64,000 bases of DNA from Eutreptiella sp. 'Long Island Sound 2002'. Its lineage: Eukaryota > Euglenozoa > Euglenophyceae > Eutreptiales > Eutreptiaceae. Every line of letters starts with the position of its first letter. Within the stretch, counting starts at the first letter, position 1. This document shows, in pieces, positions 18,205-54,330 of this stretch. The position numbers and the translations under genes were made by a program. The stretch spans positions 1 to 64,000 of the forward strand of contig OZ038394.1 of the NCBI GenBank assembly GCA_964036045.1, in the 5' to 3' direction. Below the pieces are notes generated by a model. The model did not search any database and was not told where the DNA came from. It was given only the letters and a program-made list of their open reading frames with translations.

Positions 18205-18339
18205 TGGGAACCTATGTCAGCCTTCATACAACCAGATGGGAGTATCAACCCCATCTTCCGCACTTACATCGTTGAGAACAACGAGGGTCAGCTCCTAACC
18301 CGTGCTGAGACTATGTCCCAGCGTAAGAAGCGAAACTAA
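18205..18339 (+). pseudogene. Pol C-terminus (chromodomain tail) of A1
   Basis: The reading frame begins abruptly with WEPMSAF and ends in QRKKRN followed by TAA at 18337-18339. The same 44 residues, with one visible I/L difference, close the integrase ORF of copy A2 (23400 on the minus strand). There they follow a YYVV...WDGYG stretch, which is the chromodomain, a module that in chromoviruses helps direct integration to particular chromatin. Everything upstream is replaced by CCCTAA repeats, so this is a dead terminal fragment. Confidence 0.9.
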
Positions 18340-21754: not shown

Positions 21755-21949
21755 TTATGGCACTGAGCCGTACATTGATGATGTGTGTCATGGAACCGCG
21801 GATAAAGATAATCCGGATCCGGTGGACTTGGATGCCCCATTAAGTGATAGGTGTCTGGGGGAGCATTTTTCTCAATTGCGGGAATTTTTTCTGCTCATGA
21901 GAAGGTATCGTCTCACCATTAAACCGGGTAACTTTGTTTTGTTCGCTAC
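21755..21949 (+). pseudogene. RT fragment of Ty3/gypsy element B
   Basis: Reading from TAT at 21756, an uninterrupted frame encodes YGTEPYIDDV and then LREFFLLMRRYRLTIKP. This is the catalytic YIDD box of a gypsy RT followed by the helix and the L-K-P segment that normally follow it. It ends where the inverted 3' UTR of A2 begins. The remainder of a gypsy pol in the same orientation resumes at 55041, so I read this as the upstream half of B, cut on the left by A1 and on the right by A2. About 70 codons of RT are missing between the two parts. Confidence 0.75.
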
Positions 21950-24830: not shown

Positions 24831-27005
24831 TCAGTCCTCGTAGAAGAGGTACTGATTGTTTTTATACCACTGGTGCCCGTCAATGACATGGGGTTCAAGA
24901 CCAGTGCTGAGGGTTTGGAGAATTTCTTTATACTCTGACTGATAGTCGGTTAGACTCCAACCCTCCAGGATTCCAGCAGTGCGCATGGACAGGTCAAGCT
25001 GGACATCCATACGCTGGAAAGCCTCTTTGGCGAGCGCCTCAGAGCTCTCACCAATAAGCGCATCGAAGTTGTTGCGCGATATATAGTCAGACAGTTCATT
25101 CTTAATCCCGGGGATATGATGCACTGTCAGCCTGAACTGGCTCAGGTAAGTCCACCACCGTTTTAGCTTCGCTTTTTCTGGTGGTGGGCCCTTCTGAAAA
25201 GACTTCACAGGCTCCTGGTCACACAGCCAGACAATAGGGTTAGATCCCAGGAGTCGGGATTGTGACGATAGCACCAACATACCGGCCAGGAGTTCCTGGT
25301 CATAGGTGCTGTAGTTGGAACGCGCTTGGTTCCATTTCCGATTCCAGTGTCCCAGTGGCACCAGTCGCCACTCACTGGTAGGATAGTCATGTTTCAACGA
25401 ACCATCACGGTTCAGTCCAGTAGTACGATAATGGCAGTGGGTTAGTTCAGCGGGGTTAAGCTCCTGCCATTGATAGATCGTACCTCCCCCCCCTACATCA
25501 CTGGCATCAGTGATCAGGACTATCTCGCCCCCAGGGCGGGGCACTCCCAGGCGGTTGGAGGAGGCAATCTTCTTCTTCAACTCCTGGAAACACTCTTCCT
25601 CTCTGGAGGTCCACCTCCAGGGAGTAGGCTTCTTGATCAGGTCAGTGAGGGGTGCAGAGGAGTAAGTAAAATTGTGGATGTGACGCCGATAGAAATTACA
25701 GGCGCCAACAAAACTCCTCACATCGTGTAGACCCTTCTTAGGGTCATCGCGAATCTGCATGTCCTGTAGGGGCTGCATCTTAGACGAGGCGGGTTTCCAC
25801 CAGCCATACCCCACGTCGAAACCCCAATACTCGATCTCCTCTTTCATAAACTCACATTTTTCGAGTTTAATTCGGAGATGGTTTTCTTGGCAGACAATGA
25901 AAAATTCACGGAGGAGAAGGACGTGGTCCTCTTTGGTATTAGTACCCAAACTCACGTCGTCGATGTGAGCCTCCATTTCTGCACCCCGAGAAATCAACTC
26001 TTGTACTAGAGGCCTGCGCCTCAGTATGTACAAAATTTTGTTCATAAGCTCCTGGAAGAGCGCTGGGGCATTAGCCACCCCGAAAGGCATAACCTTCCAC
26101 TTGAAAACACGACCCTTAGGGGTTATAAAGGCCAACAGCTCCTGAGCTGCGGCGGTTAGGTCCACCTGCCAGAAACCAGAGCGTTTGTCCATTTTGGTCT
26201 TATACCTGCATTTGGCAATACGCTCCAGGGTGTTTTGCATGTTAGGAATACTCCCTGAGTGGTTCTGGGTTTTCTTGTTGACCTCACCATAGTCTACAAC
26301 AAGACGTAGGGCAGGCGACCCTGGTTTAGCAACAAGGAAACAGGGACTGCAGTGATGGGGATAGTCCCCGTGTTTATACTCTTCAACGAGGCCAGCATCA
26401 ATGCATTCTTGGATCTGGCGCTCGATTTCTTCGACCTGTTCCTGTGGAGCGGGATAGGGACGACGCCTCACTCGCGTCTTTTCAAATTCTGGTTTCAATT
26501 TCAGGTCCATCTGGACCAGTTTTTTACAAGAAAGGGGAGGCGGCAAGGCGCCGAACACCTCCTCATAGGTCATCAGCAGTTTCTTCAGGCGGGGGTCAAG
26601 GTTAAGACTCTCGAGTTTCTGAAGGAAATCCTCATCAGCATGGAGGTTGCGTTTTCCATGTTCTTTCTTTTTATGCCGATCAGCAGTTTCGGCAGGTACA
26701 GTACCATCGTCCCACTCAGGGGGACATTGCTGCCCATAGTGTAGAGAATACACTAGAGGTATCTCAGGATCAGACAGCGTATAGGACTCATCGTCCTCCT
26801 CAGACCAGATGGAGTATTTCCAGGTCTGTCTGAGGTATTGCAGCCGCTCTTGGCGCTCAATACCTTCGGCCTTCAGGTACAACAGCCGTCGGAGTTCTTG
26901 AGTGTCATGCTCAGACAATGGCATGTTATTAGCAGCAGGCCGTGCCAGAGCATCAGCACTCCGGGCCACGGGTTCACCTGTGTGCACAGGCTGCATATGT
27001 AGCAC
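24831..27005 (-). pseudogene. pol: Family A reverse transcriptase-RNase H (A2)
   Basis: An open frame of about 724 residues. RT motifs are clear: VRRRPYPAP at the entry, FLVAKPG, LRLVVDYGEVN, KMDKRSGFWQVDL, FKWKVMPFGVANAPALFQ, then the catalytic box, which reads HIDD (25956-25967) instead of the usual YxDD. RNase H follows, with Asp in LITDASD, Glu in YDQELLAG and Asp in CDQEP. It copies the element RNA into DNA and removes the template. The 5' end is cut at the LINE target site at 27010 and the 3' end by the private TGA at 24831-24833, so this copy cannot make full-length Pol. Confidence 0.93.
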
Positions 27006-27010
27006 TGGTT
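26994..27010 (+). repeat. Target-site duplication, left copy
   Basis: CATATGTAGCACTGGTT recurs exactly at 50862-50878. The uninterrupted site in A3 (about 61788-61815, opposite strand) reads the same except for one base and contains the motif once. The final TT also fits the first TTAGGG unit, so the duplication is 15 to 17 bp. This shows that everything between the two copies was inserted into A2 as one unit. Confidence 0.93.
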
Positions 27011-27044
27011 AGGGTTAGGGTTAGGGTTAGGGTTAGGGTTAGGG
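27009..27044 (+). repeat. Six TTAGGG units at the LINE 5' junction
   Basis: Six perfect telomeric hexamers lie between the target-site duplication (ending CACTGGTT) and the first LINE-specific bases TTACGATTG. The G-rich strand extends rightward, away from the 3' end of the cut top strand, which is the polarity telomerase would give. No such repeats are found at the 3' junction. Confidence 0.95.
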
Positions 27045-29040
27045 TTACGATTGTCGCGCGATCGCTGCAGAAGAAAAATAAAATTACGAGAAAAAGACGC
27101 ACCGCCAGCAGAAATAAAGCGAAAAATCGTCTTTTCCGACCTCAGAAACCCCCCCAACAATTTTACGCCGCTGTTTGGCGAGGTCGCAAAATATAGGACA
27201 CTCACCGAAAAAGACGAACAATAGAGTCGCGACGGCGAAGAAACTGAGCGTTGCTTGCCCCAAACCACCTAGCAAAGTGCGTGCCCTAGGCGCTAGGGAC
27301 TTGTGCGCGCCCCAAAACAACCCACACATAGACAACAACAACGCCACCGGACGCCGACAAGCAAGTATGTTATGTGCCGCGCACCGCGAAAAACCAACGA
27401 AACAAGCACAACGCGGAAAGAGGTAGACAAGGAGAATAAATAGGTAACGAACCGCACCACGGTGGAGATATACCACAAGTACACGACCAAGCAATGCAAG
27501 CCCGCTCATGTAGGACATACGCGCGAAGGGGATCTCAACAAAAAGAGCAAGAGGCCGCACATGTACCCAAGTATGTTGAATGTCGTGCATGAAAAATACA
27601 CACAAGCAACAACAACGCCAAGGGCCGCCGGAAAGCAAGTATGTTATGTGCCATATGTTGTGTGCATAACGCCGTAACAAACGCAAAACAAGTAACGTGA
27701 TAAGCAACGCCAAAGTGCGCCGCCACGAAAAGCGCAACGAAAACCGCACCGGCAAGGAAAACCAACAAGAGGTGGCACCGAAAGAACGCCTATGCTCACC
27801 CCCGCTCGCATAGGGAAAGAAAGGTATGCCCGCACGCGCATGCCCGGAACGCCGCAAGGCCAACACCGCCACGGACGAGCAACATGGTATGAAGGGACAA
27901 ACAGGGAGGAACAAAAAGACCACCGAGGTAAAGCACAACACAACAAAAAAAAAAAAAAAAAAAAAAAAAACCAAGCATACACACGTGACTCGTGGGGTCC
28001 AAGTATGTTGCCACGCTACGCTACGTAACCGAGACGTGCCCACCGCCCACCCGCACGCCCGCTTATGTAGGAGGCGAAAGGGAGCGAAAGGGAACAAAAG
28101 GTATGCCGCCGCATGCAAACGAATAGTAGACAAGCCACACACCGCCACCAAGAACGCAAGTATGTTACCATGTCGTGCCACGTCGCCAACCGCGGAGTTG
28201 CGTGGGATAGAACACACCAATAGCCAGGGAGGGGGACAAGAAGAGCAAACACACAAATAGCATAGCGCCGGCGAGTGCCGGGTCCCAACAAACACACGTG
28301 CACGCACCCATGTTCTATCCTCACAGGTCCCGAAGAGAAGCGTATGCTCGTGTCTGCGTCGTCCGGGCGTTAAAGTAGGGTTGTCTTAGACGCTTAGGCA
28401 AGTATTGCGTCGTGCCGTCGTCACACATAAGCGAACGCCCGACAAGGCGGGAGGACTAGGACACGTTAAGGTAGTGGGGAAAGAGGCAGGTATGTTGCAT
28501 GTCACGCCGCGCGCGCGGAACGGGCGACGAGAAAAGGTAGCGACCAAAGGGGGGTGGAAACAAGCCGGGAGCAAGTGGGGCGATAAACCTACACGCAAGC
28601 CGGTGGCACACGAATGTCGCATGACGTACCAACCAGCTCGAGGTGCCGTGTCACGACAAAACCGCCGCCGCCGCACGCTTGTATACGCACCCTTCTCTCC
28701 CTACGCAGGTTCAAAAGAGGAAGCCCGGGCCGACAAGGAAAAAGACAGAGACACGCAACAAAGCGGAGGCAGGGAAAAAGTGCATGCCAGGGAGAGGGGT
28801 AGAGGAAAGGGTAAAGAGCAACGAAGCCGCGAAAGGAACAAGGGGTAGCCAGCGAACGAGCAAGGGGCGCACACAGAGGAGGGGACACGGCGGGCACACG
28901 GCGAGCACAACACCGCACCGAGACACCGGAGAGGGGAGCACCGGAGGACCAAGGAAAGAGCAGCACCACGCACCACGACACGCACGGCACAGGCACCACA
29001 CACACCGCACACACCCAACGAACCCCGGCAACCCACCCGG
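27045..29040 (+). other. LINE 5' leader, part 1 (non-coding)
   Basis: About 2 kb, less GC-rich than the ORFs. It holds recurring degenerate boxes of the form CAAGTATGTT followed by an ATGTCGTGC-like stretch: 27362, 27568, 27636, 28000 and 28157, with variants at 28399 and about 28487. Other sub-blocks also recur, such as an AAAGGTATGCC core near 27820 and 28098. A run of 26 A lies at 27945-27970. Long minus-strand ORFs here are low-complexity and are not called. It probably acts as promoter or leader RNA. Confidence 0.5.
27945..27970 (+). repeat. A26 homopolymer
   Basis: An uninterrupted run of 26 A in otherwise mixed sequence. It could be the tail of an older retroposed insert inside the LINE leader or a simple expansion. 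I found no target duplication around it by eye. Confidence 0.9.
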
Positions 29041-32000
29041 CAGTGGGCGGGCAGACGGGAGAGGGACAGCGCCTGACCCCAAGCGCCCCTCACCATGGTG
29101 GAAGGCACCCCCCCCGGGGACGCCCTTCCGCCACCCCCACAGCGAGCAACGCCGGCCCGCAAGGGCGCACGCTGTGGGGCCGGTGCCGGGCCCCCACGCC
29201 CACACCGACCGCACCCGGGACACGCGGGTCGCGGAACCCTGGCTGCACGCTCCGCAGGACGGGCAGCCGGGGGAGGGACAGCGCCTGGCACCAGGCGCCC
29301 CTCACAACGGTGGAAGACAGCCCCCCCCGGGGACGCTCTTCCGCCACCCCCACAGCGAGCAACGCCGGCCCACAAGGGCGCACGCTGTGGGGCCGGTGCT
29401 GGGTCCACACGCCCGCATCGACCGCACCCGGGACACACGGGTCGCGGAACCCTGGCTGCACGCTCCGGAGGACGAGCGGCCGGGGGAGGGACAGCGCCTG
29501 GCACCAAGCGCCCCTCACAACGGTGGAAGGCAGCCCCCCCCGGGGACGCCCTTCCGCCACCCCCACAGCGAGCAACGCCGGCCCGCAAGGGCGCACGCTG
29601 TGGGGCCGGTGCTGGGTCCACACGCCCGCATCCACCGCACCCGGGACACACGGGTCGCGGAACCCTGGCTGCACGCTCCGGAGGACGAGCGGCCGGGGGA
29701 GAGGCAGCGCCTGACACCAGGCGCCCCTCACAACGGTGGAAGGCACCCCCCCTGGGGACGCCCTTCCGCCACCCCAACAGCGAGCAACACCGGCCCGCAA
29801 GGGCGCACGCTGTGGGGCCGGTGCTGGGTCCACACGCCCGCATCGACCGCACCCAGGACACACGGGTCGCGGAACCCTGGCTGCGCGCTCCGGAGGACGA
29901 GCAGCCGGGGGAGGGACAGCGCCTGACACCAGGCGCCCCTCACAACGGTGGAAGGCACCCCCCCCGGGGACGCCCTTCTGCCGCCCCCACAGCGAGCAAC
30001 GCCGACCCGCAAGGGCGCACGCTGTGGGGCCGGTGCTGGGTCCACACGCCCGCATCGACCGCACCCGGGACACACGGGTCGCGGAACCCTGGCTGCACGC
30101 TCCGGAGGACGGGCAGCCGGGGGAGGGACAGCGCCTGACACCAGGCGCCCCTCACAACGGTGGAAGGCACCCCCCCCGGGGACGCCCTTCCGCCACCCCC
30201 ATAGCGAGCAACGCCAGCCCGCAAGGGCGCACGCTGTGGGGCCGGTGCTGGGTCCACACGCCCGCATCGACCGCACCCGGGACACGCGGGTCGCGGAACC
30301 CTAGCTGCACGCTCCGGAGGACGAGCGGCCGGGGGAGGGACAGCGCCCGACACCAGGCGCCCCTCACAACGGCGGAAGGCAGCCCCCCCGGGGACGCCCT
30401 TCCGCCACCCCCACAGCGAGCAACGCCGGCCCGCAAGGGCGCACGCTGTGGGGCTGGTGCTGGGTCCACACGCCCACATCAACCGCGCCCGGGACACGCG
30501 GGTCGCGGAGCCCTGGCTGCACGCTCCAGAGGACGAGCGGCCGGAGGAGGGACAGCGCCTGACACCAGGCGCCCCTCACAACGGTGGAAGGCACCCCCCC
30601 CCGGGGACGCCCTTCCGCCACCCCCACAGCGAGCAACGCCAGCCCACAAGGGCGCACGCTGTGGGGCCGATGCTGGGTCCACACGCCCGCATCGACCGCA
30701 CCCGGGACACACGGGTCGCGGAACCCTGGCTGCACGCTCCGGAGGACGGGCGGCCGGGGGAGGGACAGCGCCTGACACCAGGCGCCCCTCACAACGGTGG
30801 AAGGCACCCCCCCCCGGGGACGTCCTTCCACCACCCCCACAGCGAGCAACACCGGCCCGCAAGGGCGCACGCTGTGGGGCCGGTGCTGGGTCCACACGCC
30901 CGCACCGACCGCACCCGGGACACACGGGTCGCGGAACCCTGGCTGCACGCTCCGGAGGACGAGCGGCCGGGGAAGGGACAGCGCCTGACACCAGGCGCCC
31001 CTCACAACGGTGGAAGGCACCCCCCCCGGGGACGCCCTTCCGCCACCCCCACAGCGAGCAACGCCGGCCCGCAGGGGCGCACGCTGCGGGTCCGGTGCTG
31101 GGTCCACACGCCCGCATCGACCGCACCCGGGACACACGGGTCGCAGAACCCCGGCTGCGCGCTCCAAAGGACGAGCGGCCGGGGGAGGGACAGCGCCTGA
31201 CGCCAGGCGCCCCTCACAACGGTGGCAGGCACCCCCCCCGGGGGCGCCCCTCCGCCACCCCCACAGCGAGCAACGCCGGCCCGCAAGGGCGCACGCTGTG
31301 GGGCCGGTGCTGGGTCCACACGCCCGCACCGACCGCGCCCGGGACACGCGGGTCGCGGAACCCTGGCTGCACGCTCCGGAGGACGAGCGGCCGGGGGAGG
31401 GACAGCGCCTAACACCAGGCGCCCCTCACAACGGTGGAAGGCACCCCCCCCGGGGACGCCCTTCCGCCACCCCCACAGCGAGCAACGCCGGCCCGCAAGG
31501 GCGCACGCTGTGAGGCCGGTGCTGGGTCCACACGCCCGCATCGACCGCACCCGGGACACGCGGGTCACGGAACCCCGGCTGCACGCTCCGGAGGACGAGC
31601 GGCCGGGGGAGGGACAGCGCCTGACACCAGGCGCCCCTCACAACGGTGGAAGGCACCCCCCCCGGGGACGCCCTTCCGCCACCCCCACAGCGAGCAACAC
31701 CGGCCCGCAAGGGCGCACGCTGTGGGGCCGGTGCTGGGTCCACACGCCCGCATCGACCGCACCTGGGACACGCGGGTCGCGGAACCCTGGCTGCACGCTC
31801 CGGAAGACGAGTGGCCGGGGGAGGGACAGCGCCTGACACCAGGCGCCCCTCACGACGGTGGAAGGCACCCCCCCCAGGGAACCCCCTCCGCCACCCCCAC
31901 AGCGAGCAGCGTCGGCCCGCAAGGGCGCACGCTGTGGGGCCGGTGCTGGGTCCACTGCCCGCATCGACCGCGCCCGGGACACGCGGGTCGCGGAACCTGG

Positions 32001-32940
32001 CCGCACGCTCCGGAGGACGAGCGGCCGAGGGAGGGACAGTGCCTGACACCAGACGCCCCTCACAACGGTGGAAGGCAGCCCCCCCCGGGGACGCCCTTCC
32101 GCCACCCCCACGGCGAACAACGCCGGCCCGCAAGGGCGCACGCTGTGGGGCCGGTACTGGGTCCACACGCCCACATCGACCGCGCCCGGGACACACGGGT
32201 CGCGGAACCCTGGCTGCGCGCTCCGGAGGACGAGCGGCCGGGGAAGGGACAGCGCCTGACACCAGGCGCCCCTCACAACGGTGGAAAGCGCCCCCCCCGG
32301 GGACGCCATTCCGCCAGCCCCACAGCGAGCAGCGTCGGCCCGCAAGGGCGCACGCTGTGGGACCGGTGCTGGGTCCACACGCCCGCATCGACCGCGCCCG
32401 GGACACACGGGTCGCGGAACCCTGGCTGCACGCTACGGAGGGCGAGCGCGGCCGGGGGAGGGACAGCGCCTGACACCAGGCGCCCCTCACAACGGTGGAA
32501 GGCACCCCCCCCCGGGGACGCCCTCCAGCCACCCCCACAGCGAGCAACGCCGGCCCGCAAGGGCGCACGCTGTGGGGCCGGTGCTGGGTCCACATGCCCG
32601 CATTGACCGCACCCTGGACACGCGGGTCGCGGAACCCTGGCTGCACGCTCCGGAGGACGAGCGGCCGGGGAAGGAACGGCGCCTGACACCAGGCGCCCCT
32701 CACAACGGTGGAAGGCACCCCCCCCCGGGGACGCCCTCCAGCCACCCCCACAGCGAGCAACGCCGGCCCGCAAGGGCACACGCTGTGGGGCCGGTGCAGG
32801 GTCCACTGCCCGCACCGACCGCGCCCGGGACACGCGGGTCGCGGAACCCTGGCTGCACGCTCCGGAGGACGAGCAGCCGGGGGAGGGACAGCGCCTAACA
32901 CCGGACGCCCCTCGCAACACTGGAAGGCGCCCCCCCGGGG
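29041..32940 (+). repeat. Tandem 212/213-bp GC-rich monomers, about 18 copies
   Basis: The GGTGGAAGGCACCCCCC core recurs near 29095, 29308, 29520, 29733, 29945, 30158, 30370, 30582, 30794, 31007, 31219, 31431, 31643, 31855, 32065, 32278, 32492 and 32705, with a diverged partial unit at about 32905. Units differ by scattered point changes, and one or two indels make the length alternate between 212 and 213. Because 213 is a multiple of three, long ORFs appear in several frames on both strands, but they follow the unit length and are not genes. Lying directly upstream of ORF1, these resemble the 5' promoter monomers known from mouse L1. Confidence 0.9.
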
Positions 32941-33045
32941 ATGCCCATCCACCGCCCCCACACCGAGCAACGCACCAACGCACCAACGCACCGGCCACGG
33001 GACATCCGCACCCCGCCCCCTGCTCTTAGACACAGCGACATAGCA

Positions 33046-39700: not shown

Positions 39701-42700
39701 GCCCTCGTGGGTACACTCGTCCACCACCGCGCAACCTCCGTGCGCGCGGAGGTCACCAAGATGTTCTGGGAGATAGCCGGCGCGCACGGAATATGCCCTG
39801 AGGTGCACTACCCCGTCCCGGAGTTCGCAACTCTGGCGGGAGGCGACTGGGTCCAGCGCATACCCCGGGCCCTGGCCGCCCTGGGAGTGGGGATGTACAA
39901 CCCCATCGCGTGCCCCAGGGCGGCTCATGTCCAACTACAGTCCCCGCCGGGCAAAATCGTCACGCTGCGCACCGCCAAGCTGCGACACCGCGACACGTGC
40001 CGCCTGACGGTGCCACACGCAACGCCGTGGCATGGGCACCACGGGCCACGCCACCCCTTCCCCGACAACGACGATCCGTGGCCGACGGCGGTGAGGGAGT
40101 GCCTCGACCAATGCGCCGATGAACACCTCCATTATTGCCGCCATGAGCAAGGGCCCACTAACCACCCCGGGTGGCGCGATGCCCTGGCCCACCTCTTCCA
40201 CGCCACCGGCACGCGGGACTCCCGCCTGAGACTCGTCCACCCCACGAGGGCTAAGCAGGACGCCCACACCGGCCCACGGGTGACCCCAGACGGCCTGCAC
40301 CTCCACGTCGGGGGCTACCGCCGCCGGAGCGGCCTGTCCCCCCCCACGCGGGGGGCGGCGTACCACCCGCCAGTGGCCCTCATGTACATCCTCCGCGACG
40401 TACTCGCGGAAAGCGAGCACCAAGAGCCCAACGCGGACGTGGCGTGGCCAGAGCCCTTACGCCCTCGGCCCCACGCGCCGATGCCGTTGTGGCTGGTGAC
40501 CACAGACGACCAATGCACCCAAGCGGCGGGACAAGCGCAGCTCCGGGCCGAGTGGGTGATAGTGCAAGTGGGGGCAGGCCAGCCCGAACCCCGTGGACTC
40601 CCCCGCGGCACCGCCCTACTGGTGGCTACGGGGGTGCCGCACGACCCACACATGGCGGTGCACGCGCTGGAGGACTGTCCGGAGGACACAGGACACTTGG
40701 TGGTACACCAGCGCGGGGGCCCGGCGTGGCTCAAGGAACATGTGACGGCGCTCCGGTCCTGGGCAAGCACGGTCGCCGGAGCGGAGATCCGGCTGCACGA
40801 CCACCCGGCGATCAGCCCAGGCGACACCAGGGCGCTGAGCATGGACCAACTGACCCACAGCCACCCCGACGTCCGGTGGCACTCCACCGACCTCAACGCG
40901 GGGTGGCTCAGCCCCACCGGATACTACTGGATCCCGGAGGCCTGGGGACACACCTCCTCTGACGCGTCCGGGGGCGGACCCTGCAAACACGCCACCAGCG
41001 TCGCTCTCGCCGCCGACCTCACCCGCACGTGGGCGGTGGCCATCTCGGGCACGGTGCCTGACGGAGAGGGGGTGGCCGCCTCCCTCCCCCTACATTACGG
41101 TGCACACAGACCATGGGTCCACACGGTGGACGCCGAAGTCATCCTCCACCTCCTGCGGCACGCGGATCGCGAGCGAACCACGGGGGTCCCCGCGGGCGCA
41201 GCGAAGGTGGTCAACCAGATGCCCCTGAGGTGGCTCCGGGACGGCCTGTGCGCGCGGGGGCAACACGCCGGGCACCCGTTCTGGTACGTCCGAGCCACCT
41301 CGCACCACAGTGACGCCCTACTGCACAAGGCGGACTGGGCGGCGTCCCAGGACACCGTCTTGCAGAACACGCCCCCGGACCCTGGCCACGCCCAACTCAT
41401 CGTCGCCGGCCGTGACGGCCACCTCGATCTACGGCCCCCCACGATGCGGGTGCTCGGCGAGGTCGCACAACGGGCGCAGACGGACCATGCGCTGACGCAC
41501 CGGGGACACACACCTCTGGGCGCGGCCCACGCCACGGCCTACGTCCACGCCCGGGACCTCACCGCGGCGGCCACCAACCGCCGGGCGCTGCGGGCCCGAG
41601 ACGGCCACACGCCGGTGCAGCGCAGGCTCCGCGTCCGGAAGGAGCGGCTCTCCGGCGTCGCCATCGTCCCGCAGCCGTGCCTTTTCTGCGGCGGCCCGGA
41701 AGAGACCCCGGTGCACATGCACGTGGGCTGCACCCACTCGCGGCTCCTCTGGCCCCACTACCGCCAGGCGGTGCACGAGGCGGCCCGCCACCTCCCACCT
41801 GGGGACAAGGCCCTGTGGGTGGCCTCGTGGCGCTCCGCAGGCGCCACGTGGATGGAGGTGTTCTGCTCCGGACTGGTGCCCGAGGACGCGGAGGCGCAGC
41901 TCCGCGCCATAACCCGATACGACCCGCCGGGAGGGACCTCGGTGGACGAACTCCTCCACCACATGCTCCGGCTAGGGGACTTCGCGTGGGAGCTTCGCAA
42001 CCACCGGCTGGAGCAACTCCTCCACGACCCCCTAAGCGCGGCGGCCCGGGCGCACCGGTGGCTCACTGCGGCGGAGGGCGACCACCCTCCCCCTCCCCCG
42101 CGCCCTGACAAGGACTTCGTAGCCTCCCTCCGTGTTGTGAATGGCGCTCTGGAGTGCCCATTCCAAGAGGGCCCCCACCCGTATCAGGACCTGCCGGGGG
42201 GGTTCTCGAGGCACCTGCAAGACGCCCTTTTCCCACCGTGGATCATCGGGCGCGGCTCCATGACTGCATGGGAGGCGCGCATCGTGGGGGAGGATCGGGC
42301 GCGGGAGTGGGGCCGGTGGTGCGCCGCCACGCGCGCCCCGGAGACCCCTGCGCAACGATACGCCGCCATCCCGCTCCGGGGGTGGGGGCCGGACACCCGG
42401 CCGAGACCCACCATGGTCCGCGGGGCGGGACCTGACCACCCGTGGGACGCGGCGACGGGGGAATGGCTGCAGGCGGCCCCGGGGCCGCAAACGGGATGGA
42501 CTGGGGACGTATCCTCACTCGTCAGGACGCCCGTCCCGCCCCGCATCGTCCTCCACACCGCCAACGTGCTCCGGGCCACGGAGATACGCACGTGGGGACA
42601 CGCTGCGGCCACCGTCCGGTGGCAACCCCCAGAGGACGGGGCCACCCAACTCACCGTGGCGCACTTCAAAGCGGGGGGGCCGGTATACGACGACGCCCTA

Positions 42701-43438
42701 TCCCGGCTGGGCGACACCCAGGGGCCCTTACTCCTCATGCTCCCCACCGGTATCGCAGCCGCGCTGCGCCAGGAGCTGGACGGCTGCGAAGGGCCGCGAG
42801 TGGGGTGGGAGGCGGTCGCGGACGGCACCCTACTGGCCCTCCTCCACAGGGACACCGCGAACGGGTGCCAATGGGACGCGCTGACGCCCCACCTCACCGG
42901 GCGCCACGTGTACATGGCGAGCCCCCCCCAGGGGCACCCCCGCCCGGCGTGGGACGACCTCATCGCCGCCTTCCACGACCACGGGATCCTCCCCGGCGAC
43001 ACGTGGCAGGAGGTCCAGCGGAAGACGCTTGGCAAGGACTACCGGCGCCGCGTCCGCGCCCGCTTGCTGGAGATCCGGGACCCCCTCCGACAGAAGTGGG
43101 ACGACCTCTGGCTCCGCCATCTCGACCCTTGGTCGCCGCCCTCCCACCTCCCGCACACCTGCCGACTCTGCGGAGAGTGTGACACGGTGTCCTCCGCAGC
43201 AGCGACAGGCGCCAACAGGTGCGAGCGGTGCACCCAGGTAGCCGCGTGCCCCTGGCCCGAACCTCCCGCAGGTCCGCGCAGGCGCACAGAGGAGGAGGCC
43301 TTGCGCCGGCGCATCGAGGGGGCACACACCCCCTCACACGAACAGGCGGGCCCCGCGGGCGCTGCCCTTCTGTGGATCCACTTGCACCTGCGGGACCCCA
43401 CATCCATTGCGCACCTGTCGCACGTGTTCGCCCCCTAA
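36742..43438 (+). CDS. LINE ORF2: AP-type endonuclease, reverse transcriptase, RNase H, zinc fingers (one frameshift)
   Basis: Counting from the codon after the ORF1 stop, residues about 11-280 are an exonuclease-endonuclease-phosphatase domain: WNLRN, MLQETG, RGGGLLTAV, INVHGP, IAGDTN, HRVDTF and GSDHLPV. RT spans about 600-860 with DDYRPIALG, FSFDARKAFDT, RQGNPESPLL and YIDD at residue 805 (39154-39165). The frame shifts by one base at the G5 run 39511-39515; the second frame then continues with Y-V-A-P-F to TAA at 43436. RNase H follows, with Asp at 40961, Glu near 41135 and Asp at 41333; the usual third Asp seems to be Asn. Next come a C-x2-C...H...C finger of zf-RVT type (41678-41731) and a C-terminal Cys4 motif (43160-43232). 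No ATG precedes the endonuclease core; the first is at 36892. Translation thus needs TGA readthrough or another mechanism. Confidence 0.88.
39511..39515 (+). other. ORF2 frame change at a G5 run
   Basis: Upstream the coding frame is codon position 1 of the window, and downstream it is frame 2. Both sides match LINE polymerase sequence, and the old frame turns to nonsense within a few codons. One extra G in this run explains the change. Sequencing error, decay, or a programmed +1 shift are all possible. Confidence 0.75.
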
Positions 43439-43477
43439 CCCCCACCCGCCGCCGCCCTTTGCAGAGCCCGCAGCACC

Positions 43478-45010
43478 ATGCCACGCCGACGGGGGGATGG
43501 GCCGGGGCACACCAGGGCCCGCCGCAGAGCGCAGGAGGCGGCCGTCCGGGGCCTGGTGGCGGACGCGGTGGCGGAGGCAAAAGGAGCGCACGCTGCCGCA
43601 CGGTGCGACCTGGAGGGCAGTGCGAGGGCCTTCCTCAACGAGACCGCCCTCCCGGCCGTCCGCGCCCTGAACGGAGCGGGGGCCCCTACGTTGCTCCCGG
43701 CAATGCACTGGATCGTGAACGCCGTCCGGCCGGGGCTCATCAGCCCGGAAGCGGCCCTCTACGGGCACTGGATGGAGTGGCGCGAGTCCAATCGGTCGGG
43801 CCGGCCCCTGTCCATGGGGGACACCCTGCGGCTGACGGGAGCAGGGTCTGCCATGTCCCTCCGCAGTAGCGCCCCAGCCCTGCTGCACGCCCTCAGGACG
43901 CGCTACCCCGGGGACGCGGCCCCGTACCTGAACCAGGCGCGGGCCACGTACCCGGGGGGAATGTCCGAGCTGGATGCGGCGCTCCACCTTCTACACCCGC
44001 CGGACGAGGACCTGGAGGTGGGCGAGGTCACGGTGTTCGTGGAAGGCGCGGACGAGGCGTCCGCCCGCCCCCGGCCGACCAACCCGGTGTATGACGGCAC
44101 CGGGCCTACCCCCCCGTACGCCGTCGTCTACGAGGCGTTCCCCAGGGAGCCCACTTGGTGCCCCGCCCTCCCACCGGCGACGCACGCGCCCCGCGGCTGG
44201 GCTAACCCAGACCTGCCCCCCCCCCTCTCCAGGACCAGGGGTGCCCACCACAGGGGGCAGGTCCTCTGGCAAGAGTGCCCTGGCACCCCCCTGCTCCTCC
44301 TCGTCGTCGCGACCCGCGGGGACCCGGGGCGGATCCTGGGGATCACCCCCACCCACCTCTATGGGGCCACACCCGTACCCCGCCCCCCCCTCCCGGCGCC
44401 CGCGGCGCGGGACGGAGTACACACCTTCCTGCGCACACAGGAGGTCACCGCCGTTACGGGGGTCCATCTGGTGCGGCTGCCCCCGGCACCGCTCGACGAC
44501 CCCCGGGGGCCCAGGGCCCTGAGCCCCGCCCCAGACTGGGAGCTGTGGCGCGACGCGTGGGCCGCGTGGCTCCCCCGCCTCCCCTCCCAATGCCGGTGGA
44601 TGGCCGCGGACCCCCGGCCGTGCGGGGCTGACGCCACAGCCGGCCCCCCACCCCCTCCCCCCCCCCCCCCCCCACACAGCACCACACGGCACTGCCCACG
44701 GCACGGCACTGATGCACCAGGAGGTAGTGGGAAGGGCGCGCCTGCCACCACGCATGCCTACCAGAGTAACAGTAATGGCAGACTCCGATGGGTCCCTCGG
44801 GCGGGACGACCGCCACCACCGCCGGTCCCGCTCCCGCTCCCCCGTCTCCTCCCAAGAGTGGACGGGGGAGACCCTCGCGGAGCGCGAGGAGCGGAGGCTG
44901 GCGGAGGTGGCGGTCGTCGGACCGCCGCCGCCGGCCCGGGAACCTGGGCCAGCCGAGACGGCCGCCCCTGCCGCCCAAGCGGCCAGCCCCGCCGCCCCGC
45001 CCCGCCCTGA
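43478..45010 (+). CDS. LINE ORF3: unknown protein
   Basis: 510 residues from ATG at 43478 (A at -3), 39 nt after the ORF2 stop. The N-terminal part is basic (MPRRRGDG...RARRRAQ) and is followed by about 370 residues of globular-looking, Ala-, Leu- and Pro-rich sequence with no motif I recognise. It then enters a polyproline stretch encoded by a C17 run at 44657-44673 and a low-complexity tail. The last 300 nt overlap ORF4 in another frame and look like out-of-frame translation, so the true product probably ends, or changes frame, near the C run. GC-ending codon use matches ORF1 and ORF2. It has no known LINE counterpart that I can name. Confidence 0.6.
   Translation: MPRRRGDGPGHTRARRRAQEAAVRGLVADAVAEAKGAHAAARCDLEGSARAFLNETALPAVRALNGAGAPTLLPAMHWIVNAVRPGLISPEAALYGHWMEWRESNRSGRPLSMGDTLRLTGAGSAMSLRSSAPALLHALRTRYPGDAAPYLNQARATYPGGMSELDAALHLLHPPDEDLEVGEVTVFVEGADEASARPRPTNPVYDGTGPTPPYAVVYEAFPREPTWCPALPPATHAPRGWANPDLPPPLSRTRGAHHRGQVLWQECPGTPLLLLVVATRGDPGRILGITPTHLYGATPVPRPPLPAPAARDGVHTFLRTQEVTAVTGVHLVRLPPAPLDDPRGPRALSPAPDWELWRDAWAAWLPRLPSQCRWMAADPRPCGADATAGPPPPPPPPPPHSTTRHCPRHGTDAPGGSGKGAPATTHAYQSNSNGRLRWVPRAGRPPPPPVPLPLPRLLPRVDGGDPRGARGAEAGGGGGRRTAAAGPGTWASRDGRPCRPSGQPRRPAPP
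44657..44673 (+). repeat. C17 homopolymer at the ORF3/ORF4 boundary
   Basis: A run of 17 C encodes polyproline in ORF3. ORF4's frame is also open across it and back to at least 44643, so a one- or two-base slip here would fuse ORF3 to ORF4. Long C runs are also prone to sequencing error. Confidence 0.85.
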
Positions 45011-46796
45011 CGCGCAGGAGGCGGAGACCGCGGCGAGCCACGCCGCGGCCCCGGCCGCGGCCCCCGGCACGCCGCCGGCAAGGGGGGCAGCCCCGGCGCA
45101 GGAGCCGGACGCGTCGCCGAGGGCTGCCGCGGCCGCGCAGGAGAGCAAGCAGGGCGCAAGAGGGGTTGCGACGGACCCCGCACGGGCCGTGGGCGCCTCG
45201 CAGGCGGCCGCCGCGGCAGCAGGGAAGACCGAGGAGGATGTGCGAGAGTCTGCGGCCGCGGCCACGGGCGCCTCGTCGGCGGCCGCCACGGCAGCGAAGG
45301 AGAGTGCGGAGGGCGCGAGAGGGGCTGCGGCCCCCGGCACGCCGCGCAAGCGGGGGAAGAACCCCGCACGGGCCGCGGACGCCTCGCCGGCGGCCGCCGC
45401 AGCAGCAGCAGTGGGCAGGGAGAGCGCGAGGTACCGCGCCCACGCCAACCCCGCCCACACCCACACCAGCCCCCCCAAGCCGTACCCCCCGAAGCCCTTC
45501 CCCCCGGGGCGGGAGCGGCACGTCCGCCCCCCGACGCGCGAGCGCTCGCCGCCGGGCGTCACGCTGCCGCAACTGCAAAGGCAGCGGGACGCCCGGCGAG
45601 TGGTCCAGGAAGGGCGCAGCGGCGAGGGGGAGGGGAGCGGCGGACGGCGTGACAGGCAGGGGGCAGGGGAGGGGTCGGGGCACGGGAAGGGCGCGCGGGA
45701 GCGCGGGCAGGAGGCCCAGGTGCAGGGGACGGAGCGAGGGGTGGTGGGAGAGCGAGCGGGCCAGGGCGTGGTGGACGAGAGGCGGGACCCGCGACACGGG
45801 CAGGGGGTCGAGGAGGGGCCAGGGCACGGGAAGGGTGTCCAGGGGCGCGGGAAGGGTACCCAGGCGCAGGGGGCTGGACAAGGGGGGATGGGAGAGCGAG
45901 CGGGCCGGGGTGTGGGGGACGAGAGGCGGGACCCGCGACACGGGCACGGGACCAGAAAGGGGCCCAAGGGCAAGGGCAAGGGCAAGGGCAAGGGCCCCAA
46001 GGGACAGGGGGGACGGGGCACGGGAGCCCAGGGGGGAGGGCGGGGCGAGGGGAGGGGGGCAGAGGGCGGAGCACCCCCGCAGCCGGAAGTGCAGCCGGTG
46101 AGGTGCATCCCCCCCGGCATCCAACAGATGCCGGCACACCACACCTACCACCACCACCACCACCACCACCACCACCTCTACAACATCGACCCTGACGCCG
46201 GCGAGCTCATCCCCCCCCAACCCCCACGACACCAGCACCAGCAAGCCCCCCCCGCGCCGAGGGCGGAGCCGGCGCGGATGGCCTCGGCGGAGGGGGGACG
46301 GGGCGTGGCATCGGCGCCGCAGGTGCAGGAGCAGCGAGGGGGGCAGGCACAGGGGGCGGAGGAGAGCCGGCCGTGGAACGTGGACTGGGGCGCAGTCCCG
46401 GACCCGCTGGGGGGGGAGACCCTCCCCCTGGTGGGGGAAGTGTACGGGTGGTTGTGCTGGGCCAACCAGGGGACCTCCAGGAGGTCGCGGAACCGGCCCT
46501 TCGATGCCGTGCTCCTCCGGAGGGACGGAGGAAACCGAGAGGCACCCCCGGGGGGGTGGGCGGCACCAGAGGACCACGAGAGGGTCCTCAGGTCAGTGAT
46601 CCGGGCGGCGTGGCCCGACAGGGAGCCGACGTGGCCGGCCTTCCTGGAGGGGGGAGCGGTGCTCCGCATCACGGATGCGGACGCCAACAACTGGCTCCCC
46701 CGGGCTTTGCGTAGCGCCCTCGCCCACTGGCGCTACCGCCGGCACAACCCGCCGCCGCCGCAGCCCCAGCCCCCACACAAGCGGCGGCGCAAGTGA
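44775..46796 (+). CDS. LINE ORF4: low-complexity basic protein with SR-like, Ala-rich, Gly/Lys-rich and His-rich tracts
   Basis: About 673 residues if started at ATG 44775 (G at +4); upstream in-frame ATGs at 44712 and 44754 have weaker contexts. The N-terminus is SR-like (DDRHHRRSRSRSPVSS). There follow Ala-rich imperfect repeats (ASPRAAAAAQES-like units about 40 residues apart), Gly/Lys/Arg/Gln-rich repeats, and a run of ten His near 46150-46180. A compact C-terminal domain follows (VDWGAVPDPLGGETLPLVGEV... to ALAHWRYRRHN), ending KRRRK, a likely nuclear signal. The composition suggests an RNA-binding or condensate-forming protein, but that is inference. It shares the LINE's GC-rich codon use and ends at TGA. 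Confidence 0.6.
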   Translation: MADSDGSLGRDDRHHRRSRSRSPVSSQEWTGETLAEREERRLAEVAVVGPPPPAREPGPAETAAPAAQAASPAAPPRPDAQEAETAASHAAAPAAAPGTPPARGAAPAQEPDASPRAAAAAQESKQGARGVATDPARAVGASQAAAAAAGKTEEDVRESAAAATGASSAAATAAKESAEGARGAAAPGTPRKRGKNPARAADASPAAAAAAAVGRESARYRAHANPAHTHTSPPKPYPPKPFPPGRERHVRPPTRERSPPGVTLPQLQRQRDARRVVQEGRSGEGEGSGGRRDRQGAGEGSGHGKGARERGQEAQVQGTERGVVGERAGQGVVDERRDPRHGQGVEEGPGHGKGVQGRGKGTQAQGAGQGGMGERAGRGVGDERRDPRHGHGTRKGPKGKGKGKGKGPKGQGGRGTGAQGGGRGEGRGAEGGAPPQPEVQPVRCIPPGIQQMPAHHTYHHHHHHHHHLYNIDPDAGELIPPQPPRHQHQQAPPAPRAEPARMASAEGGRGVASAPQVQEQRGGQAQGAEESRPWNVDWGAVPDPLGGETLPLVGEVYGWLCWANQGTSRRSRNRPFDAVLLRRDGGNREAPPGGWAAPEDHERVLRSVIRAAWPDREPTWPAFLEGGAVLRITDADANNWLPRALRSALAHWRYRRHNPPPPQPQPPHKRRRK

Positions 46797-46934
46797 AGGC
46801 CCAGACGGCGGGCACGGGAGGGGGGGATTGGCCCCCTGACCCACGCCCCCCCCACGGTATGGCACGACGTGCGGGGACGCGCCGCCACCCGCGGGAGGGA
46901 GTGCGGAGGCGCCAAGCGCGGGGAGGAACCGGCT

Positions 46935-47977
46935 GCCCCGCAACCTGCTAACCACTGACCGCTAACCATCAACCACCCCCGGCCGGCCGGCGCCGCGCGG
47001 CAACGACCGGGGAGGTGAGGGCCCCGGCGAGGGCCTGCGCGGGCATCCAGCTCTCGATAGGGGGGGCGGGTGACGGGCGCGACCCCCTGGCCGATGGCTG
47101 GCCCCCGGGACCAGGGCCGCCATGCCGCCCCCGCCCCCCCCCCCCACGGCCGACGAGAGGCATCACCAGGGGGCCAAAGGGCCCCCCCCAACCCGCCCCC
47201 CCCCCCCCCGCACAGACCCGGGGGCGGGCGAGGGGGCGGCCCCCCCACCCCCCCCCCCCCCCCGCACCCACCGCAGCAGGGGCGCCACAGGCGCGGCCCT
47301 CCGCCCCCCCAGGGCCGGGGGGGCGCCCCCCCCTCAGGGGGAACGGCGGCTGGACCTGCTCCCGCGAACCCACACCGGCGTGCCGGGGCAACGCGCACGA
47401 CGGAGCAGGAAGGAGGCCGCGCCCCACATGACCCTCCCGTAACCACAGCCCGCTCCGAGGTGACGAAGGGAGGGTGTCAAGTCAGATGGGGCCCCCAGGG
47501 GGGCGGTCCACGGGCCGCCCCTCACCCCCCCCACCACGGGGCGGCACTTCAGCCCCGACCGCAAGCGCGCGCCGGAAGGGAGCGCACCGGCGACGCGGAG
47601 AGAGCCAGGAAGGAGTACCACAGGCCGCCGCCTGGAACGAGAGCAGAGAGGCCGCGGCGCGACACCCCCCCCCCCCCCCCCGCCCCCCCACCGGCCCGCC
47701 GGCCGCAGGGGCCCCGGCCCCCACCCCCCGAGGCTGAAGGGACGGACCCCCCCGCCCGAGAGGGGAGTCGGAGAGTGACCCGCCCCGACGCCCCAGCCGC
47801 CGGCTCCAATGGGGGCCGCGAAGAGCATGTGGGCCCACGCCTGCGCACCGGGACGCCGCGCAGATCGTGCCCAGAGAAGCCGGGTGGGCGCGAACCGGAA
47901 TGGTATGGGTGGCCACGCCCCCCATGGACAGCACGACGCCAAGGGACGCCCGCTTGGTTGCCTACCCGGGGAAAGCG
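46935..47977 (+). repeat. LINE 3' UTR direct repeat, copy 1
   Basis: About 1043 bp beginning GCCCCGCAAC and aligned along its length with 47978-48972. Shared landmarks include GCTAACCACTGACCGCT near the start, the C-rich block with GGGCCAAAGG-like text, ACCCACACCGGCGTGCC, and the GTGGCC...CCATGGACAGC block near the end. Confidence 0.85.
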
Positions 47978-48972
47978 GCCCCGCAACCCGCTAACCACTG
48001 ACCGCTGACCCTCACGACCACCCCCGGCCGGCCAGCGCCGCGCGGCAACGGCCGGGAAATGAGGGGCCCCAGGGAGGGACTGCGAGAGGATCTGGCACTC
48101 GGTAGAGGGGGGCGGGGGAAGGGCGCGACCCCCCTGGCCGATGGCTGGCCCCCGGGGCTGGGACCGCCAAGCCGCCCTCCCCCCCCCCCTTTTTTGGCCG
48201 ACAGGGGGCATCGCCAGGGAACCGAAGGACCCCCCCCACTCCCCCCCCCCCCCCCCTCCCACACAGGCCCGAGAGCGAGCGGGGTGGCGCCCCCCCCTCC
48301 CCCCCCCCCCCGCACCCACCCCAGCTGGGGAGCCACAGGCGCGGCCCTCCGCCCCCCCAGGGCCGGGGGGGGCGCCCCCACCCACAGGAGGAACGGCGAC
48401 ACGGTAAGGGCAGCGGCGGCTGGACCTGCCCCCACGAACCCACACCGGCGTGCCGGAGCAACGCGCACAACGGAACACGAAGGAGGCCGCGCCCCACATG
48501 ACCCTCCCGTGACCACAGCCCACTCCGAGGGGACAGAGGGGGGGTTTGCAGGTCAGCCGGGGCCCCCAGGGGAGCGGTCCACGGGCCGCCCCTCACCCCC
48601 CCCCGCCCCGGGGCGGCACTTCAGCCCCGACCGCACGCGCGCGCCGGAGGGGAGGGCCAGAAAGGGGTACCGCAGGCCGCCGCCCGGAACGAGAGCGGGG
48701 AGGCCGCAGCGCGACACCCCCCCCGAGGCAAGGGGAATGGACCCCCCCCACCCGAGAGGGGGGCCGGAGTGTGACCCGCCCCCCCGCTCCGGCCGACGGC
48801 CCACACGGGGGCCGCGAAGAACAAGCGGGCCCACGCCTGCGCACCGGGACGCCGCACGGATCGTACCCGCAGAGGCTGGGTGAACACGAACCGGAGTGGT
48901 ATGGGGGGCCACGCCCCCCATGGACAGCGCAACGCCAGTGACCCCCGCTTTGTTGCCTGCCCAGGGAAGGCA
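47978..48972 (+). repeat. LINE 3' UTR direct repeat, copy 2
   Basis: The second unit, about 995 bp, diverged from copy 1 by substitutions and small indels, mostly in homopolymer runs. No third copy follows. Confidence 0.85.
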
Positions 48973-49229
48973 GAGGGACGGAAAGAGGCAGAGCGACCCC
49001 CCGCCCTACAGTCAGTCGGCGACCCGGTGGTGCTACTGCCCGCCTCTTACCCCTGTGCACGTCAGTCGGCGATCCAACGCACCCCACCCAGCCCCCTCCC
49101 CTGTCCCGACCCCGTGCGCATGGACTGAGGCCTCCCGGCACGCGCAACACGCTTCACGGCGCACAGCCCCACCCACAGGACAGGATTCATAGCCGACGAC
49201 ACCCCTCAGTGGCGTAAGAGACTCCCGCG

Positions 49230-49290
49230 GCCCAGTAGTGAGAGCGTCGGTCTTCAATCGTCCAGTGCGGGGGTTCGATCCCGGGCGTTG
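49230..49290 (+). promoter_or_regulatory. tRNA-like A/B-box motif in the LINE 3' UTR
   Basis: CCAGTAGTGAGAGCG (49232-49246) resembles a D-arm/A box and GGTTCGATCCC (49272-49282) matches the B-box consensus at tRNA-like spacing. The T-stem forms only partly and no acceptor or anticodon stem is convincing, so this is not a tRNA gene. It may be a decayed Pol III promoter or chance. Confidence 0.2.
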
Positions 49291-49519
49291 GTGTTCCTGG
49301 GATCCCTGCACGTAGAGCTCTCTAGTTGGCGACGCGGGAACCACCCCCCCCTCCAGCAACTCGCGCCACCACCGATACCGGTGGATCGGGTGGAGGTCTC
49401 GTTCGTTTTACCCCCCACCCAAGAAAAACAAAAGACATGGGAACCACCCACCCCTGCAGCAGTGCGCACCGTCACCTGTACTCAAACAGGTCGATGGGAG
49501 GCCTCGCCCGGTATTCGAA

Positions 49520-49545
49520 GGGATCGGTGGGAGACCATCGATCCC
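49520..49545 (+). ncRNA. 11-bp RNA hairpin with GAGA (GNRA) tetraloop
   Basis: GGGATCGGTGG (49520-49530), GAGA (49531-49534) and CCATCGATCCC (49535-49545) form an 11-bp stem with one G-U wobble capped by a GNRA tetraloop. It lies about 1.3 kb from the LINE 3' end. Structured 3' UTR elements are recognised by the RT of several LINEs during target-primed reverse transcription, so it may be a recognition or stability element. Confidence 0.55.
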
Positions 49546-50840
49546 GGGGTTCGAACCAGCTCCTGCGCGGCGCGCGCCTGGCGCGCTGCCTCCGGGGCGG
49601 CTGCCTCCAGAGATACACCGGCACCCGGGTCACAGAACAAACGCGCCCGCAACCCCCTCCCCCTGTACTAAGAGTAAGCCCGCGGTAGGGCTGCCCAGCT
49701 GGGCCATGAACCGGGACATTGGAGCACCACTCCAGCCACGGTCACCCCAACCCCCCCACGCATCCCGCAGGGCGAAGCTCCGTGCGCATCAGGCTCGTCA
49801 AGAGAATCCGGCGGGCCGGCGCGTGGACACCAAGACGACACCTCTCTCCCCCCCCGCGGGAACAGAGCGGGGCCCCCACAACCGCACGCCCGCAACGCAG
49901 ACCCCGACAGCCCACATAGTGGACGGGCAGAAGAGGGAAGAGGAACGCCCCACGCCCCACGCGATGAACGAAGGCACCCCCCCGGGGACGCCCAGCCGCC
50001 GCCCCCGCAACCCCAAGCCAAGTAGGGGGGAACCGGGACCGGACCGCCCCCCCCCAAGCACGCCAGACGGAGCACGGGACCGGGGCAGGACACGCTGAGG
50101 GGCACGGACCACATGGAACGGCCCTACCAGCGCCCAGTGCCGGGAACACGCGAGATGCGCGCGCCACACCACCCAGCGGGGAGCGGACACCGCGAGAGCG
50201 CGAGCGCACACACACGAAAAGGACACGCGGGGACCACCAGAAGGGCAACCGGACCGAGCGCGCGGAACGCACAGACCACATGGAATGGCGTACCAGCGAG
50301 CGAGGATAAGGGACACCCGGACGGGACGGCCCGCCACACGCAACGCGGGATACGCGGGGCGGGAAGGGGGAAGAAGGGGAAACACAACACCAGGTACCGG
50401 CCCGGACCCCCCCGAACCGGCCGCGAGCGCCGCGCACACACAGACGGGACACTGCACCCGCCAAGGCAGTAGTGGCGCACAGCGCCACGCCCCAACCCCT
50501 AGGCTAGGCAGCCACCGCGCCAGCCCAAGGGGGTCCCACTGGCGACAAGCCAGTAGCACGGGCCCGGCGGCGCCGGTGCCCCGGGCGACCACGCATTAGG
50601 GGAGCGACGCAGTGGGTAAGCGCCCGCGGCCACGGCTGCGAATTGATGCACTGACCGGGGAGTGGCGAAACGGGGACGCCGGGGAAGGACGGGGCTCCGA
50701 GCTCTGTGAACCCGGGGGACTCCGCCACCAGGCAGGAGGTGCGTCTTGGAGGGCCCCCCACTAGGACCCGGTGGGGAGGATATCACCTGGCCCGACCAGG
50801 TGGCCCCCCGGGGCCGAAAAGCGTCTAGTACCCGCAAAAT

Positions 50841-50861
50841 CAAACCTCAAACCTCAAACCT
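50841..50861 (+). repeat. LINE 3' tail, (CAAACCT)3
   Basis: Three exact CAAACCT heptamers directly precede the right target-site duplication. Short tandem repeats instead of poly(A) end several LINE clades (for example CR1 and I) and arise during the start of reverse transcription. This fixes the 3' end and the plus orientation of the insertion. Confidence 0.85.
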
Positions 50862-50878
50862 CATATGTAGCACTGGTT
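50862..50878 (+). repeat. Target-site duplication, right copy
   Basis: An exact match to 26994-27010. After it, the gypsy A2 sequence continues (TCCCAACAGAGG...), in agreement with the uninterrupted copy A3. Confidence 0.93.
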
Positions 50879-52070: not shown

Positions 52071-52073
52071 CTA
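52071..52073 (-). promoter_or_regulatory. Conserved UAG between gag and pol (readthrough candidate, A2)
   Basis: The codons run GAA TAG GGG GGC GGC, with gag and pol in the same frame on either side. The same stop and context occur in A3 (60597-60599), although the two copies differ elsewhere. Murine-leukaemia-type retroviruses express Pol by UAG readthrough in a comparable UAG-GGN setting. Confidence 0.6.
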
Positions 52074-54248: not shown

Positions 54249-54330
54249 TGTGAACTTGTTGTTGAGCTTTTGTGCTGCACTTCTTCTCAGGGTCGGTTCA
54301 AAAGGTCACAAGGGACTGTCTCTGCTACCG

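Follow-up and report, generated by a model that had tools for sequence, protein, structure and literature searches.

A 23.8-kb block inserted in a gypsy element of Eutreptiella sp. is almost certainly a single giant LINE

Long interspersed nuclear elements (LINEs) are usually 4-8 kb long. In contig OZ038394.1 of Eutreptiella sp. 'Long Island Sound 2002' (Euglenozoa; assembly GCA_964036045.1), a gypsy element is interrupted by a block of nearly 24 kb that encodes LINE-type proteins and has telomere-like repeats at one edge, which raises the question of whether so long a stretch can have moved as one element. In this work, we analyzed the window, i.e., the first 64 kb (64,000 nt) of this contig (C17 of the 2.28-Gb genome searched), together with copies of the block elsewhere in the genome. 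The block is almost certainly one LINE, an APE-endonuclease retrotransposon without long terminal repeats (non-LTR), which is about 23.8 kb long and copies itself in full.

The DNA inserted spans 27011-50861 (23,851 bp) and is flanked by an exact 17-bp duplication, CATATGTAGCACTGGTT, whose only two occurrences in the window start at 26994 and 50862. The insertion splits a minus-strand gypsy pol: matches to reverse transcriptase (RT) and RNase H, with an integrase match below the cut-off, lie at 23400-27005, and protease matches lie at 50847-52046 on the other side of the block. The site is unbroken in a sister gypsy copy of opposite orientation; by self-comparison of the window, 24800-27010 aligns with 64000-61791 at 97.6% identity and the right flank (50862-55040) aligns with 61807-57627 at 96.0%. 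Because both flanks align to this continuous copy, 61791-61807 represents the unfilled target site. Both the exact duplication and the joining of the outer sides into a continuous gypsy pol had been claimed in the initial annotation of this DNA, and both were borne out. A chance duplication is negligible, since 11 of 12 element copies with both ends paired (see below) bear duplications of their own of 13-20 bp. In a genome search with 211 bases of the gypsy element (26800-27010; 1,078 first-look candidates, best 40 scored), matches at 100% were obtained for 36 of the 39 other listed places, from which this gypsy family is judged to be very young.

The genome was searched with the 3′ end of the element (50300-50861; 1,429 first-look candidates) and with its 5′ leader (27048-27600; 2,096 candidates), and the best-scoring 40 places were listed for each. 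Thirty of the 3′ places, including that of the window, were fetched and ten were left out; because the query contained the tail, this sample is biased toward tail-bearing loci. In all 29 other 3′ loci, the match continues upstream to about 50 bases from the fetched edge (about 48.0-48.8 kb in the window) at approximately 93-99% identity, and the element ends in three CAAACCT units, the last of which is a few bases short in some loci. A subfamily difference is seen near 49.1-50.0 kb, where 0.74-0.84 kb is missing from eight of these loci and 22-28 bp from three. Two of the 29 (L027 and L028) have one flank in common.

Of the 39 other 3′ places, five have a listed 5′ partner on their own contig and strand. 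For eight of the 15 remaining fetched 5′ ends, we predicted a 3′ end with tail about 23 kb downstream and found it in six; internal element sequence in the expected orientation was found at the other two (L085 and L089), so these copies are longer or internally different. In total, the leader and the 3′ end occur together, in a single orientation, in 12 copies including that of the window; 11 measure 22.6-24.2 kb and one 34.4 kb. Their lengths, within a few bases, are 23,809 (window), 23,595, 23,512, 24,013, 24,206, 34,359, 22,563, 23,765, 23,664, 22,724, 23,097, and 24,118 bp. All 12 have target duplications at dispersed sites, which measure, in the same order, 17, ~5, 15, 17, 13, 13, 13, 15, 14, 15, 20, and 14 bp, a few bases of which may be common to the tail. 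The copy on contig C16, whose sequenced stretch was compared whole, is collinear with 27053-50860 apart from having about one monomer fewer and missing 28 bp near 49.9 kb. Those on C3, C8, and C11 were compared over ~39.2-46.9 kb and are collinear at 98.6-99.2% identity; the seven other paired copies were characterized by their ends alone. The C8 copy sits in another gypsy copy, and the C3 copy, like the L026 copy, is nested in another copy of the element; its duplication, TGGTG, and its filler of ~15 nt were read by alignment to its host site.

Given the 12 paired copies with common ends and separate duplications and the collinear C16 copy, the block is one mobile unit. The initial annotation had taken 26994..50878 to be a single LINE-type unit and had expected other copies to end in CAAACCT repeats and to carry duplications of their own, all of which agrees with these results, the expected 15-17 bp widening to 13-20 bp in 11 of 12 copies and ~5 bp in one. 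The same annotation named mobility of the ORF2 part alone as the observation that would speak against a single unit. No such part was seen among the best 40 of 1,429 and the best 40 of 2,096 places, partial copies not being sought.

The coding content is that of a LINE. In the second open reading frame (ORF2), an APE-type endonuclease (EN) with the motifs SWNLRNG, QETG, GDTN, RVD, and SDH, which we take to be catalytic, precedes an RVT_1 RT domain, and the matches among Protein Data Bank (PDB) sequences were named R2 retrotransposon protein and LINE-1 ORF2 protein. Further on, a weak zf-RVT match (E=0.025, under the cut-off) was found in Pfam, searched here and below with E up to 10. RNase H gave no Pfam match and its motifs were placed by eye only, and nothing useful was found for 39671-43438 among PDB sequences. 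The element has a fixed 3′ end with a short-repeat tail and no LTR, self-comparison of the window giving no terminal repeats of at least 100 bp (shorter ones being outside the listing). Selection was assessed by the ratio of nonsynonymous to synonymous changes (pN/pS), pooled over copy pairs that are not independent of one another. The ratio is 0.29 for ORF1 (one pair of copies), 0.30 for 39515-42190 of ORF2, and 0.61 for 42200-43435, compared with 1.19 and 2.36, 1.09 and 1.53, and 1.66 and 1.20, respectively, in the other frames. These values indicate purifying selection on ORF1 and on most of ORF2.

In both copies read, ORF1, its TGA stop, and ORF2 follow in a single frame with no ATG between them, and the first in-frame ATG of ORF2 (36892) lies downstream of the first endonuclease motif (36775). 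The window copy has one frame change in ORF2, between 39500 and 39670. Database proteins P0006-P0009 continue through this break, and the C3, C8, and C11 copies are uninterrupted over the part compared.

At the 5′ end, 36 of the 39 other junctions begin with the same first base, GTCGCGCGATCG, which corresponds to 27053 in the window; three (L071, L072, and L081) start a few bases further in. Between this base and the duplication, all 12 paired copies have filler, with 42 nt in the window and 11-30 nt in the eleven others. Other copies had been expected to start at the leader or the monomers; the leader start held, and the start in the window was moved 42 nt further in. The TTAGGG repeats of the window filler are absent from all 39 other junctions compared, and the exact pattern GGGTTAGGGTTAGGG was found within 30 nt of an element start at the window's place only, in a genome-wide search that covered the G-strand pattern. 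The telomere-like repeats, initially assigned to the element, are therefore not part of it.

The left duplication ends in GGTT, a 4-nt match in register with the TTAGGG repeats, and the G-rich strand of the filler runs in the direction in which telomerase would extend a top-strand end. One study reports TTAGGG arrays at old break sites, where in its telomerase cases the ends expose 1-8 nt in register (PMC2246262). We also considered whether fillers had been copied from the element and rejected this origin, as the longest matches of 13 fillers or filler parts to the element were no longer than in most shuffled sequences. Next to the element start, L039 and L044 have 17-18 nt in common, and so do L079 and L080 with one mismatch, in both pairs on differing flanks, which implies that filler can be inherited. 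As separate observations, short interstitial TTAGGG runs lie near copy L033 and one in L006, such runs being not rare in this genome, and the duplication plus filler of the C11 copy (L041) reads TTTTTTTCG, resembling the end of the Euglena spliced leader, probably by chance.

These features would fit a pathway in which, from the target nick, the ORF2 protein reverse-transcribes a full-length RNA that begins at GTCGCGCG. The enzyme would run through 23.8 kb to the 5′ end and yield a near-complete cDNA, and the free top-strand end would then be joined with 11-42 nt of filler. In the window copy, the TTAGGG repeats continue the register of the top-strand end, ...CACTGGTT, and about seven of them were most likely synthesized there before closure, by telomerase or from a telomeric RNA template. 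Translation of ORF2 probably depends on readthrough of, or restart after, the TGA of ORF1. Spliced-leader trans-splicing occurs in euglenids and could supply translatable mRNAs despite the 33 ATGs upstream of the ORF1 start (33046).

The tandem arrays, the internal 1-kb duplication, and the several ORFs in the block could suggest a composite, i.e., an ordinary LINE, a satellite array, and other repeats nested at one site, and nested insertions do exist in this family, as in the C3 and L026 copies. However, a composite would not recur with the same ends in 12 copies, 11 of them at 22.6-24.2 kb and each with its own short duplication, nor would it be collinear from end to end on C16. We rejected this explanation, which the paired copies render extremely improbable. 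Spread as DNA, either through segmental duplication or as a cut-and-paste transposon, could account for the common flanks of L027/L028 and of L049/L050, and some duplication evidently occurs. It can hardly be credited as the general mode, given that flanks and duplications differ among the paired copies, that the self-comparison gave no terminal repeats of the length stated above, and that the element has coding sequence for EN and RT and a short repeat tail at its end.

Two further explanations concern the telomeric seam. A telomere-targeting or telomere-borne LINE, with TTAGGG belonging to its 5′ end, would agree with the telomeric beginning of the window copy, which lies about 9 kb from a telomere array. 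Such targeting was rejected and is very unlikely to apply, as the 39 other junctions are non-telomeric, the exact pattern occurs at a single place, and the listed places are spread over many contigs. A much closer contender attributes the filler to template switching onto telomeric RNA or to capture of a telomeric fragment rather than to telomerase. A non-LTR RT is described as jumping templates and extending without a template (PMC8857657), and fragment capture is named as an alternative (PMC2246262). The strand and the 4-nt register fit telomerase, as do the 1-8 nt exposed in register in reported telomerase cases (PMC2246262); nevertheless, we regard switching or capture as a serious possibility, somewhat short of even.

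For the single element with telomerase at its open end, several points weigh on the opposite side. Comparison from end to end was made for one other copy, with three more covered over 7.8 kb and seven by their ends; the listings hold the best-scoring 40 places each, and truncated or partial copies were not sought. The duplication of the C3 copy is only ~5 bp, and in ORF2 of the C16 copy the frame changes too, at a point beyond that of the window. Over 36742-39500, pN/pS is 0.79 against 1.31 and 0.51 in the other frames, which is uninformative with 33 changes in all. The full-length RNA is deduced from DNA sequence, filler in every copy is unusual for LINEs, and the telomerase step derives from one event and a 4-nt match. 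The single LINE itself is almost certain; the fuller account, in which a giant autonomous lineage (24 kb, with a similar sister family) combines TGA readthrough or restart, 24-kb cDNAs, and telomerase at the open top strand, is possible and put forward only tentatively.

Table 1. Features of the inserted element, its flanks, and the unfilled site (window positions)
Feature	Position	Strand	Remarks
Left target-site duplication	26994..27010	.	CATATGTAGCACTGGTT; exact match at 50862-50878
Copy-specific 5′ junction filler	27011..27052	+	42 nt; AGGG(TTAGGG)n then TTACGATT; without counterpart at 39/39 other 5′ junctions
LINE element	27053..50861	+	23,809 bp; common first base, common 3′ end, one collinear copy
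5′ leader	27053..29055	+	GC 55%
212-bp monomer array	29056..32973	+	~18.5 units; GC 76%; in C16 copy too, about one unit shorter
ORF1	33046..36741	+	1,231 aa; stop TGA
CCCH-like zinc motif of ORF1	33262-33318	+	by eye
Possible cysteine-protease motifs of ORF1	34906-34956, 35401-35451	+	by eye
C2H2-like zinc motif of ORF1	36325-36387	+	by eye
ORF2	36742..43438	+	~2,230 aa; in ORF1's frame, behind its TGA; frame-disrupted in window copy
APE-type endonuclease domain of ORF2	36775..37557	+	PF03372, E=1.2e-7, above cut-off
Reverse transcriptase domain of ORF2	38653..39384	+	PF00078 (RVT_1), E=3.4e-23; YIDD at 39154
RNase H-like motifs, then CCHC zinc motif, of ORF2	40955..41731	+	by eye
ORF3	43478..45010	+	510 aa; ATG start; in ORF2's frame, behind TAA; weakly supported
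ORF4	44712..46796	+	694 aa; low complexity; weakly supported
Internal tandem duplication	46932..48968	+	~1 kb, 82-84%; self-comparison; present in C16
3′ tail	50840..50861	+	T(CAAACCT)3; 29/29 other 3′ loci fetched
Right target-site duplication	50862..50878	.	exact copy of 26994-27010
Unfilled target site in sister gypsy copy	61791..61807	-	window self-comparison

ORF1 gave no Pfam match and nothing useful among PDB sequences. A ubiquitin-protease-like domain (DCTNCGAV..., GGYRSHILAGGRWAVWH) is possible as a by-eye reading, the structure predicted for residues 61-1190 having a mean predicted local distance difference test score (pLDDT) of 28.7 and being not used. A protein search with ORF1 scored 7,991 candidates, which gave 79 clusters with 1,110 member sequences (439 in the largest); these clusters stem from outside sources and not from the genome searched. 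Neither Rfam families nor tRNAs were detected in scans of the window.

ORF3 is open in all five copies up to a poly-C tract of variable length near 44657. Its pN/pS before the tract is 0.57 (0.64 and 1.20 in the other frames), and after the tract the values are 1.37 for the ORF3 frame, 0.59 for that of ORF4, and 0.90 for the third. ORF3 is weakly supported up to the tract and not supported beyond it. For ORF4, pN/pS is 0.68 against 1.03 and 0.72, and the C16 copy has an internal stop; ORF4 is doubtful. Its MORN match in Pfam has an E-value of 9.5. The four ORFs initially recognized in the block therefore differ in standing: ORF1 and most of ORF2 are under selection, ORF2 is split by a frame change in the window copy, and ORF3 and ORF4 are weak.

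A protein search with the RT region found 271 proteins with E-values up to 1e-4; the listing covers the best 120. From P0221 on, most of these have ~46-52% identity to the query and, as judged from sequence similarity, form a second LINE family with an RT that is about 50% identical. In the genome, this family gave 19,238 first-look candidates; among 41 scored, 26 list a 2,234-aa open frame, one of these with a stop in the match (loci include L092-L099 and G000:C3:185168367). In the copy read on C3, a 2,373-aa ORF ends in TGA and is followed in the same frame by the endonuclease with no ATG, as in the first family, and ~16 kb separate the ORF1 start from the end of the common 3′ part. In the two parts compared, two copies of this family agree from ~1.0 kb before the endonuclease and again 6.7-9.0 kb after its start; the second of the two seems to be truncated at its 5′ end.

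The start of contig C17 has two long telomere arrays head to head at 277-18204, (GGTTAG)1292 then (CCTAAC)1691, with a degenerate G-rich stretch between them at ~8016-8060. This arrangement is probably an assembly join of two ends and possibly a fusion. At 18200-18230, the array directly abuts gypsy-related sequence, with 18202-19794 being an inverted copy of 21945-23537, and this junction resembles a broken end that was healed when a telomere was added. Elsewhere in the genome, COX1 copies occur on more than 50 contigs. One of them (L101), compared with PDB sequences, has by far its strongest match in chain 8iuf_C1 of Euglena gracilis (688 bits, the next match having 425); together with the TTAGGG telomeres and the abundant LTR elements, this makes a euglenid related to E. 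gracilis, though distinct from it, the likely source. The COX1 on contig C42 (L100, G000:C42), which lies beside COX2 and reads TGA as Trp, unlike the many standard-code copies, is from a contaminant or a second organism.

Full-length copies of 22.6-24.2 kb with complete 5′ ends and long frames raise the upper limit for target-primed reverse transcription and provide a natural RT for testing extreme processivity. The single TGA in the same frame, also present in a family with a ~50% identical RT, is a testable translation switch, and the window copy illustrates how TTAGGG repeats can enter a chromosome where a retrotransposon was joined to its target. In a study on Euglena gracilis, LTR elements are abundant and LINEs make up only 1.5% (PMC11252322). 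Among the literature matches listed, with subscription journals and preprints outside reach, there was no description of a giant or longest LINE of this type or of such a Euglena non-LTR element.

Among known systems, the element is most readily compared with I, R1, Ingi, and related APE LINEs, with which it shares the order EN, RT, RNase H-like, and CCHC, variable duplications, the lack of LTRs, and a short repeat tail, a likeness that includes the by-eye RNase H-like motifs. It differs from them in being about three times longer, in its ~2,230-aa ORF2 with no ATG before the first endonuclease motif, in an ORF1 without a known Pfam domain, in a 6-kb 5′ leader with 212-bp monomers, and in a possible ORF3. 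Tandem monomers of ~200 bp also occur in the 5′ region of mouse L1, whereas here they are set 2 kb inward from a fixed 5′ end. Terminons, the giant Penelope-like elements of bdelloid rotifers, are likewise large, encode an RT, and lie near telomeric repeats; in contrast, our element has an APE endonuclease, LINE RT matches, target duplications, and dispersed sites, and the telomeric repeats lie outside it. Its LINE-type EN and RT matches speak against Penelope-like membership, no Penelope profile having been compared. The TRAS and SART telomeric LINEs of insects are APE LINEs too, with TTAGG-type repeats at their boundary, but the element shows no telomere targeting, as its 39 other junctions and the single genomic place of the pattern do not indicate insertion into telomeric repeats. 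A short exact TTAGGG array in register is also what characterizes the telomerase-added interstitial sequences at breaks described in PMC2246262, with the difference that here the top strand at a site of LINE integration would serve as the broken end. The element is of a known kind but unusual in size, and its TGA arrangement and telomeric seam are worth following.

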